Shown piece after piece: positions 16,712 to 23,972 of a stretch of DNA of 64,000 nt. Each line of letters begins with the position of its first letter. The stretch's first letter is position 1. The translations under genes and the position numbers were made by a program. The stretch lies in contig JAFCIZ010000001.1 of NCBI GenBank assembly GCA_017871115.1, positions 5,679,501 through 5,743,500 of the forward strand, given 5' to 3'. The DNA comes from Cunninghamella blakesleeana (Eukaryota; Mucoromycota; Mucoromycetes; Mucorales; Cunninghamellaceae). The notes below the pieces were generated by a model, which was not told the DNA's origin, searched no databases, and saw nothing but the letters and a program-made list of their open reading frames with translations.

Positions 16712-17086
16712 TTAATCATTTAAATTATCTATCATAGATTGATCATTATTTTTTCTTTTAACCCTTGGGTATCTTCGGTGTCGATGAGCGATCAAGGCAT
16801 TTTTTCCGCCAATCAATTGATAGAGAAGTTCATCATGAGTAATCCCTTTTAAAAAATGATAAGCCGTAACGATTTTTTTATCTTCTTCAAATGTTATATG
16901 AGCAGCACTTTCAAAGAGTTCAAAAATCACATATTCAAGTACCGCGGTAAGATATATTGAAGTTAACGAATTGTATTTATAAGTATATCTTTCTTTACGT
17001 AACATGTCTTCGACTTTAGATACAGGAATACATAATCCTGATTTAACGGTTTTACTTCTTTTTTGAGTCTGAGTAGTATCGCCCAT
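16712..17086 (-). CDS. Divergent histone H2A-like protein
   Basis: 124 residues from the ATG at 17084-17086. The histone fold follows canonical H2A in order: SGLCIPVSKVEDMLRKERY (canonical GLQFPVGRIHRLLRKGNY), SIYLTAVLEYVIFELFESA (VYLAAVLEYLTAEILELA), EEDKKIVTAYHFLKGITHDE ([20 protein letters not shown]) and LLYQLIGGK (LNKLLGGV). Differences are large. The N-terminal tail is only about 15 residues, the L1 loop is rewritten, one residue of the D-E-E acidic-patch triplet is Leu (HDELL), and the C-terminal docking segment is replaced by a basic tail HRHRRYPRVKRK. It pairs head to head with an H2B-like gene. The ORF stays open upstream of this ATG to 17305, but that part is hydrophobic and atypical and follows a pyrimidine tract with AG, so the shorter start is preferred. 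It should dimerise with H2B in the nucleus; a role as a specialised variant is inference. Confidence 0.85.
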   Translation of the reverse strand: MGDTTQTQKRSKTVKSGLCIPVSKVEDMLRKERYTYKYNSLTSIYLTAVLEYVIFELFESAAHITFEEDKKIVTAYHFLKGITHDELLYQLIGGKNALIAHRHRRYPRVKRKNNDQSMIDNLND

Positions 17087-17394
17087 AACTAAAAAAAAAA
17101 TTGGTTTGACTATATGTATATAGAAACAAAGAAAATGAGCGAAAAAGAGAAAAAAAAAAGTTGGAATAAAACTACTCTTTATATATACATGAGAACATAA
17201 AAGATAGAATGGTTTTAAAACATCATTTGACAACCTTTTTAATTTTAATAGTGATTTTTTTGAAACCTGCGAATCAACATTATTCAAAGCTATATAAATA
17301 TGCATTTAATCATTTTTTTATTTATCATTTATTATTTCTTTTTCACTTTACTTTTTTCCTTTTTTTAAAAAAAATTTTTTACTGAAAAATAAAA
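17087..17394. promoter_or_regulatory. Bidirectional promoter of the histone-like pair
   Basis: 308 bp separate the two start codons. It holds TATATATAC near 17180 (as read on the + strand), CTATATAAATATGCATTTAAT-like sequence near 17290 with a TATA box, and long T and A tracts. Head-to-head H2A-H2B arrangement with a shared promoter is the usual layout of canonical histone pairs in fungi, so co-expression is likely. Confidence 0.6.
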
Positions 17395-17945
17395 ATGGAT
17401 GAAATTAATCATACAAACGAAGACATGAATAATGATCAAGGTAAAAAATTAATACACATACCTTTTTATTATTATCATTTTAAAAAAAATAACTAAATTA
17501 ATGCCTTATTATTATTTGTTATTTGATAAGAAAAGAAATGACACAACCAAATACTAGTGAAGAAGAAGATATTTCTCTGGATGAAGATGAGCAACATCAA
17601 CAACGTATGAAAAAATCACCCTCCATGTATCCACGTCGCCGGCCAGGATTACCTCGTTATCAACATATAACTTCCTTTCGACATAAATACCCTCAACTTT
17701 TAACATCATTACACCCAACTCTTAAAATATCCTATGATTTAATCAATGTAGTAGATTCAGTGATTAACCATCTTTTTCATCGTATTGCAAGTGAAGCACG
17801 AGAATTAGCAAATTTAAGAAAGCGTCAAACCATCCTTTATCATGATATTGAATCTGCTTGTCGCCTTATCTTTCCTTCTGAAATTTATACTCATGTTAAA
17901 ATAGAAGCAACAAAATCAATTCAACGGTATAAAATTTCGAAATAA
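17395..17945 (+). CDS. Divergent histone H2B-like protein
   Basis: Exon 1 (17395-17440) encodes MDEINHTNEDMNNDQ, and exon 2 starts at 17536 after AAAAG, giving 151 residues. Residues 60-151 follow canonical H2B: LTSLHPTLKISYDLINVVD, SVINHLFHRIASEARELA (canonical FVNDIFERIAGEASRLA), LRKRQTILYHDIESACRLIF ([20 protein letters not shown]), PSEIYTHVKIEATKSIQRY (PGELAKHAVSEGTKAVTKY). The N-terminus is acidic (SEEEDISLDEDEQ) rather than the Lys-rich tail of H2B, followed by a short basic patch PRRRP. The lysine before the final Tyr that is monoubiquitinated in canonical H2B (K120 human, K123 yeast) is Arg here; a lysine two residues later could substitute. It is expected to pair with the neighbouring H2A-like protein. 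Confidence 0.86.
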
Positions 17946-20009: not shown

Positions 20010-21161
20010 ATGAAAGATAGTAATTTAATAATTACTCTACTTCCTGAATTTGGTTGGTCCATTCATGGTACACCTGTCTACGGTCCTAATAGCTGCTTCT
20101 CTGGTGAAATACAATTAAAATTATCCAAACCATCTAAAATAGATCGCGTTCGACTTGTGTTTCAAGGTGTAGAAAGCTTACCTCCTTTTGATGTATCTCC
20201 TGGTGTGGTTCGTGGAAAGAAAAATGCTTTATTTGGTGTCCAACAAACATTATGGGAAAGTAAAGATGGTTCACCTATGCTTGATGCCAACACATATAAC
20301 TATTCCTTCACCTTACAACTACCTAACGTTCAATATCCACCCTCGGTCAGAAATGATTATTATACATGTAATTATAAATTGATTGCCGTGGCTGAATTAC
20401 AATTACAAGATGGATCTTATGAAACACTTTTCATCAATGAAGAGCCTGTTCTATATATGCCTTATGTAGAAACACGACCATTGAAACAACCATCTTTAGT
20501 ACAACAACAACAACAACAAACTGATTTAACAGTTTCTACCAAATTCCAATCCTTTGACTATGTAATTGGAGATTCTATACTTGGCTCTATCCAAGTTGAC
20601 TCCTTTATTAATGGCAACAGCAATCAAAATGTATCCGCTTTAATGAAAAAATCAATTGAAGTTTCTCTACGAGTATATCAAACAACAAAAAATTTAATAT
20701 TTGATGATGTATCAGGCAGTACTTGTTTAGTAGCTTATAACAATTATAAATTATATCCTGTCAGCACTGTTACAGTTGATAAAAAGAAATCCAAATTGAC
20801 CTATTCCAGTAATATTGAATTAGATTTACCTTTCGATTTAACACCAACATTTACCTATAGTTCCTTAGCTTCCATGACTTATAGATTATGTATTAGTGTA
20901 AAGCGAAAAGGACCTTTATCCATGTGGGCTGATGAAGTAAATATGGAATATCCTTTAACAGTGGGCACTTTAGGTTATGGTGTTCGTTCTAGTCCTGATT
21001 TACAAGTATACACTTTAGTGGATAAATCAATTGTTCGCCCTACTTTTATGAAATCTCTTGAATATGAAGATGCTTTACCTGTTTACACCTCTGATAAATT
21101 ACCTACTTATAATGATGTATCTACAACAAAAATTTTAACAACTTTGGTTAATCCTATTTGA
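20010..21161 (+). CDS. Arrestin-related protein, paralogue 1
   Basis: Intronless, 383 residues. Two arrestin-like beta-sandwich halves are recognisable: the N-terminal half from GPNSCFSGEIQLKLSKPSKI through DRVRLVFQGVES, ending in YPPSVRNDYYTCNYKLIAVA with VLYMPYVETRPL, and the C-terminal half from DYVIGDSILGSIQVDSFI through LDLPFDLTPTFTYSSLASM and YPLTVGTLGYGV. The tail has EYEDALPVYTSDKLPTYND, with two LPxY motifs resembling the PY motifs that alpha-arrestins use to recruit Rsp5-type (HECT, WW-domain) ubiquitin ligases, though not exact PPxY. It probably adapts plasma-membrane cargo for ubiquitination; cargo is unknown. A paralogue lies 1.45 kb downstream on the same strand. Confidence 0.85.
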   Translation: MKDSNLIITLLPEFGWSIHGTPVYGPNSCFSGEIQLKLSKPSKIDRVRLVFQGVESLPPFDVSPGVVRGKKNALFGVQQTLWESKDGSPMLDANTYNYSFTLQLPNVQYPPSVRNDYYTCNYKLIAVAELQLQDGSYETLFINEEPVLYMPYVETRPLKQPSLVQQQQQQTDLTVSTKFQSFDYVIGDSILGSIQVDSFINGNSNQNVSALMKKSIEVSLRVYQTTKNLIFDDVSGSTCLVAYNNYKLYPVSTVTVDKKKSKLTYSSNIELDLPFDLTPTFTYSSLASMTYRLCISVKRKGPLSMWADEVNMEYPLTVGTLGYGVRSSPDLQVYTLVDKSIVRPTFMKSLEYEDALPVYTSDKLPTYNDVSTTKILTTLVNPI

Positions 21162-22615: not shown

Positions 22616-23972
22616 ATGGATACTTCTAATATACAATTATCTATTAAACTTCAACCAGAATATGGTTGGGCAATTAAAAATACACCCGTATTTGGTCCTT
22701 CGAGTATTGTCTCAGGTACATAAACCATTGATTATTTTAAAAAAAAAAAATAAGCAAACTATCATGACCATCATTGCTAATTTTTTTTTAAAAAAAATAA
22801 TATAAAATTAAATAGGTCATGTCGATTTACAAATATTAAATCAAGAAATTTTATCTAGAATAGATAAAATAAGAATTGTTTTTCATGGATCTGAGAGAAT
22901 GATGAATATCAAAACAGGCTCTTTGATCAAAAGAAAGCAATTCTTTGGTACTCAAAGAATCATTTGGGACAGTAAACGTCCACAAAAAGATTTAACAGTC
23001 ATGAATAAATATTCTTTCCCTTTTATCATTCAATTACCTAACGTACAATTCCCTCCTTCTATGGATTATCCTCATTACAAATGCTACTATATGGTTTCTG
23101 TTTATATTGACGAAATCGAAAATCATACCAATACAAGAACAAGTATCAACCCAAAAGAAACTTTACAAGAATATAACCAGCCTATCATTTTTATGCCTTT
23201 TATTGAAACTTGTCTTTTTAAAACACCTTTAATTCAATCTATTCCTCCAAAATCTAAAAAAAATAATAAAAAAGACCACCATCAACAACAGCAACCTATT
23301 AAATTATTAACACATGCTTTGGATTATGTTCCCGGTGACTCAATTAAACTGGACGTGACAATTCCTGATTATTTTTACCAATCCAATAATAACAATGACT
23401 CATCTACTACAACCTGTGCATTTTCTTCCATGTCTCTTACTTTAACCCAAATAGTAAAAAGTTCAAATCAAGTCCATCAATCTACTGTTTCTACTTTGAA
23501 AATCCCATTATTATCATTACAATCCTCCTCACTTTCATCTTCCACTTCGTCTTTTAACCCATTAAAACAACAAATAGAACTTCCACTTTCGTCCGATTTA
23601 ACGCCCACTATTACTTATAGCGATGTCATTTCTGTGAACTATTCCTTACATGTACAATTCCATGAAAATAAATTAAAATTGTCTTCCTTTTTTTCATCCT
23701 CTTCATCCGATCATTATCAATTAACCTTACCCATTCGTATTGGTACCTTGGGTTATGGCATTCGTCCATCTGAAGAATTACAAGTATATTCTATTTTTAG
23801 AACCTCGTTTGAAAATCAAGAAAACGATCCAAGACCTTCTCTACCTAATCCTACTTTTTTACAAAACGTTGAATATGAAGATGCTTTACCAGTATATGAA
23901 GTAGACCCACAATTACCTTCTTATGACTCTTTTATTTCAAACCACTCTCCCATTCCTTCTTATGTTAATTAA
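22616..23972 (+). CDS. Arrestin-related protein, paralogue 2
   Basis: Two exons (22616-22715 and 22816-23972) give about 418 residues. It aligns along its whole length with the gene at 20010: PEYGWAIKNTPVFGPSSIVSG versus PEFGWSIHGTPVYGPNSCFSG (each 21 residues with a shared GW..TPV.GP core), FFGTQRIIWDSK, QLPNVQFPP, PIIFMPFIETC, LPSDLTPTITYSDV-like segment, PIRIGTLGYGIRPSEELQVY and NVEYEDALPVY. The tail holds LPVY, LPSY and IPSY, again degenerate PY-type motifs. Between the two lobes it carries a His/Gln/Lys-rich linker and Ser-rich loops absent from paralogue 1. It is a tandem duplicate that has diverged strongly and gained an intron or kept one lost by its neighbour. Confidence 0.84.

Follow-up and report, generated by a model that had tools for sequence, protein, structure and literature searches.

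The 64,000-nucleotide window of the Cunninghamella blakesleeana genome contains a head-to-head pair of intact genes that encode a strongly divergent H2A-like and a strongly divergent H2B-like histone (Table 1). With a probability of about 0.6, the two products form a dedicated extra dimer, in which the proteins likely pair with each other, and which is predicted to be held loosely in nucleosomes and to serve a restricted stage. The positions of both reading frames and their identity as real histone relatives were confirmed, and the divergent arrangement and spacing reported in an earlier note on this DNA, made by inspection of the letters, were borne out. Frames of this length seldom arise by chance: order-2 simulated sequences of 64 kb held one ATG-initiated frame of at least 120 residues in 4 of 30 cases, and the window holds 20 such frames. 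The H2B-like gene (17395-17945, plus strand) contains an intron that was absent from the earlier note. The unspliced frame runs into a stop codon within the intron, and the spliced product is 151 residues long; three later in-frame acceptor sites are also present. A T-rich stretch ending in TTTTTTTTTTAGTT (17087-17104, minus strand) immediately precedes the ATG of the H2A-like gene and resembles a 3' splice site, so that an intron in the 5'-UTR of this gene is possible. Further along the window, the adjacent frames 20010-21161 and 22812-23972 have alike C-terminal motifs (LGYGVRSSPDLQVY and LGYGIRPSEELQVY) and, judged by eye, are probably tandem arrestin-like genes. Another neighbour of the pair, likewise named by eye, is CWC15-like.

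Table 1 Features of the variant histone locus (window positions) and other histone genes of the genome (C1, C5, and C6 are contigs).
Feature	Position	Strand	Description
H2A-like gene	16712-17086	minus	124 aa, one exon; ATG at 17086, stop at 16712
H2A-like rewritten C-terminal segment	16712-16807	minus	residues 94-124 and stop, replacing the end of the canonical docking domain and the tail; border approximate
Intergenic (promoter) region common to both genes	17087-17394		308 bp between start codons
H2B-like exon 1	17395-17440	plus	start of acidic N-terminal tail
H2B-like intron	17441-17535	plus	95 bp, GT...AG
H2B-like exon 2	17536-17945	plus	remaining acidic tail, basic proline-rich linker, histone fold, alpha-C helix
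Cluster with H3, H2A, H2B	C5 near 630-634 kb		Pfam Histone matches (six over both clusters)
Cluster with H3, H2A, H2B	C6 near 462-467 kb		Pfam Histone matches (six over both clusters)
Third, single H3	C1		Pfam Histone match
Intron-rich H3	C6 3.908 Mb (about 3,907,748-3,908,532; L009:549-1333)		two Pfam Histone matches
H2A.Z exon	C6 4.58 Mb		Pfam Histone match

The classes of the two proteins were established by searches of the Protein Data Bank. The phmmer search with the H2A-like protein matched H2A at E = 2.3e-11 (42.3 bits, chain 1kx3_C) and returned 205 distinct sequences with E values of 0.001 or less; the best 60 of these are chains of H2A or H2A variants, some of them fused to H2B. The H2B-like protein matched an ordinary H2B chain at 6.2e-15, scored 55.3 bits with chain 1s32_D, and had as its top row, at 3.2e-29, a chain with two copies of H2B. 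It also exceeded the 26.4-bit cut-off of the Pfam Histone model (PF00125) with 29.9 bits, whereas the H2A-like protein reached just 14.2 bits, below the cut-off. With 1kx3_C and 1s32_D, solved nucleosome chains of animal origin, this genome's canonical H2A and H2B reach 206.7 and 178.6 bits, respectively. The variants score 38.6-38.7 bits (H2A-like; E 3e-8) and 57.4-58.9 bits (H2B-like) with their own canonical partners. Therefore, they are more distant from the canonical histones of the same genome than those are from animal histones. Direct genome searches gave identities to the canonical partners of 30% for the H2A-like protein, and 39% and 41% for the H2B-like protein. Within ungapped fold blocks, 23 of 74 residues (31%, H2A) and 33 of 77 (43%, H2B) are identical. 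The earlier claim of strongly divergent histone relatives was correct for both proteins and understated the divergence, since it had placed the differences mostly outside the fold core.

The H2A-like protein scores 38.7 bits with canonical H2A and 21.2 bits with the H2A.Z of the genome; its L1 loop has the length of that of canonical H2A and lacks the one-residue insertion of H2A.Z. Its identification as H2A.Z was therefore rejected. A docking domain of the GGVLPNI type was not found in the protein: in the alignment to canonical H2A, HVTIAQGGVLPNIHATLLP... is replaced by GKNALIAHRHRRYPRVKRKN... within the C-terminal segment, and the GKNALIAHRHRRYPRVKRKN stretch is mostly present in a relative from another Cunninghamella record (P0001, see below). 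Because of the replaced docking domain, the protein is a variant of H2A descent and not a canonical H2A. The canonical references used for alignments, the L1 comparison, and Protein Data Bank scoring were one residue short at the C-terminus, with no consequence for the conclusions.

The pair is additional to canonical histone genes located elsewhere in the genome. Searched with the Pfam Histone model, the 31.9-Mb genome yielded 11 matches with E values of 0.001 or less, including the H2B-like gene of the window (28.4 bits); the H2A-like gene was missed by this model genome-wide. Translations showed that both canonical clusters also contain H4 genes. The canonical H2A-H2B pairs of the two clusters are head-to-head, in agreement with the earlier comparison of the variant locus to such pairs, and have 638 and 607 bp between their starts. 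The presence of canonical H2A and H2B, which the earlier note had proposed to look for, makes the H2A-like and H2B-like genes extra genes, and the explanation that they are no more than this organism's own fast-evolving histones was rejected. A search of the genome with the H2A-like protein at E up to 1 returned the protein itself, the two canonical H2As, and H2A.Z (31% identity, E 0.007). That with the H2B-like protein returned the two canonical H2Bs and both exons of the query gene; a further two matches, with E values of 0.13 and 0.64, were taken as noise. Further genomic copies of either variant were thus rejected. The intron-rich H3 has, by eye, Thr31 and Lys42 in place of the Ser and Arg of the cluster H3s, and looks like a replacement-type H3. 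Canonical H2A (L006:1465-1857) ends in ASQEI, a SQ tail of the H2A.X type; according to passages of PMC3380720, yeast H2A has the similar ending ASQEL.

Relatives of both variants were found in other records of the genus. Both of the two candidates from the protein search with the H2A-like sequence match it and are labelled Cunninghamella echinulata: P0001 is 85% identical over the full length, and P0002, a partial record, is 99% identical over 68% of the query. Of the 12 candidates scored with the H2B-like sequence, two had E values of 0.001 or less, namely P0003 and P0004 (79% identical), which carry the same species label. P0003 corresponds to the spliced product end to end, with 97% identity over 151 residues, which supports the chosen acceptor and the intron model; in protein alignments, both P0003 and P0004 are ungapped across the splice junction. 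P0001 and P0004 are each located on a contig of 9,094,544 bp, and P0002 and P0003 each on a contig of 8,516 bp, both distinct from the contig of the window (8,032,158 bp). Based on the equal sizes of the carrying contigs, it is very likely that the H2A-like and H2B-like genes are linked in what appear to be two other assemblies. The co-divergence of both partners proposed earlier holds: both proteins are changed here, and their relatives recur in apparent linkage. When a profile was built from the three H2B-like proteins and 288 candidates were scored with it, P0003 and P0004 alone reached E up to 10. That search needs shared five-residue words and likewise did not return canonical H2Bs, so the absence of the pair from other Mucorales is unproven, and its limitation to Cunninghamella is the apparent result of a word-limited search. 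In these protein searches, no relatives were found beyond records labelled Cunninghamella.

The residues that are retained and those that are altered fall into a pattern, described here in human numbering. Canonical hydrophobic fold positions are still hydrophobic at 25 of 34 sites in the H2A-like protein and at 27 of 30 in the H2B-like protein; for polar fold positions that have turned hydrophobic, the corresponding counts are 12 of 40 and 7 of 47. Seven of the eight acidic-patch residues are kept in the window and in P0001/P0004, namely five of six in H2A (E56, E61, E64, D90, and E91, with E92 replaced by L) and both in H2B (E105 and E113). The H2B alpha-C region is kept as well (Glu105, Glu113, and the C-terminal SK), as is H2A R35. 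Contacts with H4 and DNA are not fully gone, since H2B E76, R86, T88, and R99 persist. The altered residues of H2A include R32 to D, R77 to I (V in P0001), R81 to Y, and R88 to T (A in P0001), with the milder changes R29 to K and R42 to K (Q in P0001); two of the altered arginines are presumably DNA-contact residues. The last part of the H2A docking domain is also altered. In H2B, Y83 is replaced by L, and K120, the usual ubiquitination lysine, by R in both the window and P0004. H2A R32, R77, R81, and the docking motif, and H2B Y83 and K120, are sites that are altered also in P0001 or P0004. Lysines and arginines of the fold are kept at just 5 of 12 positions in H2A and 7 of 11 in H2B, and two have turned acidic in each. 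The lysine-rich basic N-terminal tail of canonical H2B is absent from the H2B-like protein, the tail of which is acidic, with a charge of -14 over residues 1-38 (-9 over 36 residues in P0004, and +9 over 29 in canonical H2B). The summed net charge of the two proteins is +4, compared to +26 for the canonical partners and +8 for P0001 with P0004. In all three H2B-like proteins, the fold is directly preceded by the same basic proline-rich block (residues 47-56, YPRRRPGLPR).

Structure predictions were calculated with AlphaFold from three-row alignments, that of the H2B-like protein being based on P0003 with exon 2 of the window and P0004. The model of the H2A-like monomer has a mean pLDDT of 41.3, which is very low confidence and makes it unusable; its helices (22-33, 40-59, 66-79, and 84-91) follow the order of a histone fold. 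The H2B-like model has a mean pLDDT of 67.1 and is confident over residues 81-150 alone (block means 82-94). It contains alpha-2 and alpha-3 merged into one helix (76-127), followed by alpha-C (130-150), and because of this merging the assignment of the H2B-like fold rests on the sequence. A Foldseek comparison of the H2B-like model with the Protein Data Bank gave two weak matches, to chain D of a nucleosome that contains testis-specific variants (E 0.039) and to an isolated Drosophila H2A-H2B dimer (E 0.13).

The simplest account of the locus is that the pair is an old duplicate of a canonical head-to-head pair, the products of which changed together. The linkage and co-divergence of the genes bear on a putative preference of the two variants for each other over canonical partners. 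The retention of the fold and acidic patch, combined with the rewriting of the docking segment, tail, and ubiquitination site, points to a dimer that likely enters nucleosomes and is likely labile within them. Since the dimer would retain its hydrophobic handshake core and the greater part of its acidic patch, chaperones, remodellers, or H4 tails could still recognise it. Its grip on the H3-H4 tetramer would be weakened by the rewritten docking segment and the loss of H2B Tyr83, and that on DNA by the lost fold arginines and the reduced charge. The acidic H2B tail and the arginine in place of the ubiquitination lysine may put the dimer outside the normal tail-acetylation and H2B-ubiquitin marks. 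Open and easily lost nucleosomes would result where and when the dimer is expressed. Expression is probably restricted to a certain stage, such as spore or zygospore formation, a guess made by analogy with the germ-line H2A and H2B variants of animals.

The very low net charge raises the alternative that the pair is perhaps not nucleosomal at all, and the strongest rival is accordingly a histone-fold heterodimer that works outside nucleosomes, in which a duplicated H2A-H2B pair would have become a transcription or DNA-repair factor. NF-YB/NF-YC and CENP-S/CENP-X use the same handshake outside nucleosomes, and the model for CBF/NF-Y and archaeal histones gives the H2B-like protein 20.3 bits, slightly below the cut-off of 21.4. 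The acidic H2B tail and the sparse retention of basic fold residues, two of them reversed in each protein, also fit such a factor. However, the conserved acidic patch, the alpha-C region, and Arg86/Thr88 are presumably nucleosome-surface and DNA-contact features with no obvious reason to persist away from the nucleosome, and the solved relatives among the matches listed are core H2A and H2B. We consider this alternative unlikely, and prefer the extra nucleosomal dimer.

The codon usage of the variant pair does not look like that of bulk histones. Codon adaptation, calculated with the canonical histone genes of the genome as the reference set, is 0.32 for the H2A-like and 0.34 for the H2B-like gene, in contrast to 0.63-0.81 for canonical histone genes with their own type left out. 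The values resemble those of ordinary genes: the frames of at least 150 residues in the window (n = 15, one of them the extended H2A-like frame) range from 0.19 to 0.73 with a median of 0.37, and the H2A.Z exon has 0.45. Such ordinary codon usage fits a possible restricted expression. The motif CGYGTT occurs three times in each canonical H2A-H2B promoter (L011:3191-3828 and L012:1466-2072), a count reached in 0 of 200 shuffles; since it was chosen after inspecting these promoters, the shuffle figures are post hoc. Two or three of the sites lie 10-11 bp apart beside a TATATAAAAATAA stretch. One site is present in the H3-H4 region of C5, and none in the H3-H4 region of C6, upstream of the third H3, the intron-rich H3, and H2A.Z, or in the three other upstream stretches of the window that were covered. 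It is possible that CGYGTT is a histone control element of this fungus. The variant promoter contains none, which says little, because the region is short and 0.035 sites are expected by shuffles. The intron, the ordinary codon usage, and the lack of CGYGTT sites are indirect hints at most of a possible replication-independent expression outside S phase.

The comparison of the window proteins with their relatives bears on whether the genes are maintained. The H2B-like protein and P0004 differ at 21 of 46 residues at positions 1-46 and at 11 of 105 at positions 47-151 (Fisher p = 5e-6), and this concentration of differences in the tail indicates that the H2B fold is under constraint. The differences between the H2A-like protein and P0001 (3 of 17 in the tail, 9 of 76 in the fold, and 7 of 31 in the C-terminus) show no marked contrast. 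P0001, P0003, and P0004 contain no breaks and agree in length with the window proteins. Judged from these comparisons, the pattern appears to be that of constrained genes, the H2B-like gene above all. A decaying, functionless duplicate of a canonical pair could account for the low codon adaptation, the score of the H2A-like protein below the Pfam cut-off, its lack of contrast between tail and fold, and the partial record P0002. Nevertheless, the unbroken relatives, the ungapped H2B-like junction, the confinement of H2B differences mostly to the tail, and the retained acidic patch and hydrophobic positions make decay very unlikely. Variation that mostly keeps the core and acidic patch and rewrites the docking segment and H2B tail argues in the same direction. 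These patterned changes and the contrast within the H2B-like protein thus speak against the pseudogene-like substitution pattern that the earlier note had named, together with a lack of transcription, as a ground against its reading; they do so less clearly for the H2A-like protein.

The least probable account is that the dimer is tied to centromeres or kinetochores and, CENP-A having been lost from the lineage, would mark kinetochore chromatin through H2A-H2B instead of H3. It would suit the genome searches, run exon by exon so that split domains can be missed, in which canonical-type H3 alone and no CENP-A-like H3 was found, the C-terminal domain of CENP-C was not found, and that of CENP-T gave a match above the cut-off (56.6 bits, C2:819074-819394) spanning stop codons, presumably introns. 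The lack of a CENP-A-like H3 agrees with the loss reported in passages of a survey of 55 Mucoromycotina, according to which all Mucorales and Umbelopsidales lack CENP-A (PMC9089191). However, the relatives of the pair were found in Cunninghamella alone and the loss is common to all Mucorales surveyed, so that the pair looks younger than the loss, and the locus contains no centromere pointer. More doubtful than the factor outside nucleosomes, yet less so than decay, is a bolder form of the extra-dimer reading: a dimer private to Cunninghamella and encoded by one divergent unit, in which both partners are swapped to build a second type of nucleosome that has an acidic tail, lacks the H2B ubiquitin site, and docks weakly, and which, CENP-A being absent from the lineage, could mark kinetochore or spore chromatin via H2A-H2B rather than H3.

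An extra dimer of linked and co-changed H2A and H2B would be a natural experiment in what a dimer can lose (docking, the ubiquitin site, and the basic tail) while selection keeps it. The pair would also be a compact genetic unit for testing the swap of a whole variant dimer into nucleosomes, and may offer an entry point to the spore or centromere chromatin of fungi without CENP-A.

Fungi are not known to use histones other than the canonical ones, H2A.Z, H3 variants, and CENP-A, the last of which is missing from lineages such as Mucorales. The earlier statement that no such fungal pair is known is consistent with the part of the openly licensed literature on fungal and Mucorales histone variants that was covered (including passages of PMC9476466), in which no comparable variant pair is described. 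The variant pair resembles canonical fungal H2A-H2B pairs in its head-to-head order, histone classes, L1 length, and mostly kept acidic patch. It differs from them in its low fold identity (31% and 43%), shorter intergenic region, intron in the H2B-like gene, lack of CGYGTT sites, ordinary codon usage, acidic H2B tail, and rewritten docking segment. Brown and other algae have the lineage-restricted H2A.N, H2A.E, and H2A.O with distinct docking domains and tails (passages of PMC12459048); unlike the pair, these are H2A variants of algae, and the words "fungi" and "fungal" do not occur in the main text of that paper. Apicomplexan H2B.Z and trypanosome H2B.V are dedicated H2B variants thought to interact with a variant H2A (passages of PMC3380720). 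Their partner is H2A.Z, whereas the H2A-like protein described here is nearer to canonical H2A. The short H2As of mammals, H2A.B and H2A.L, are fast-evolving and have a shortened or altered docking domain, and H2A.L.2 pairs with a special H2B of the testis, TH2B (passages of PMC7226823 and PMC3380720). The Cunninghamella pair is similar to them in the loss of docking and in having an H2B partner. However, short H2A variants are described as confined to mammals (passages of PMC3380720), and H2A.B and H2A.L.2 as lacking the acidic patch (passages of PMC7226823). The H2A-like protein is not a member of the short H2As, since it keeps the acidic patch, and the Cunninghamella dimer is set apart from them by its seven retained acidic-patch residues, the encoding of both partners in one divergent pair, and the acidic tail of its H2B.
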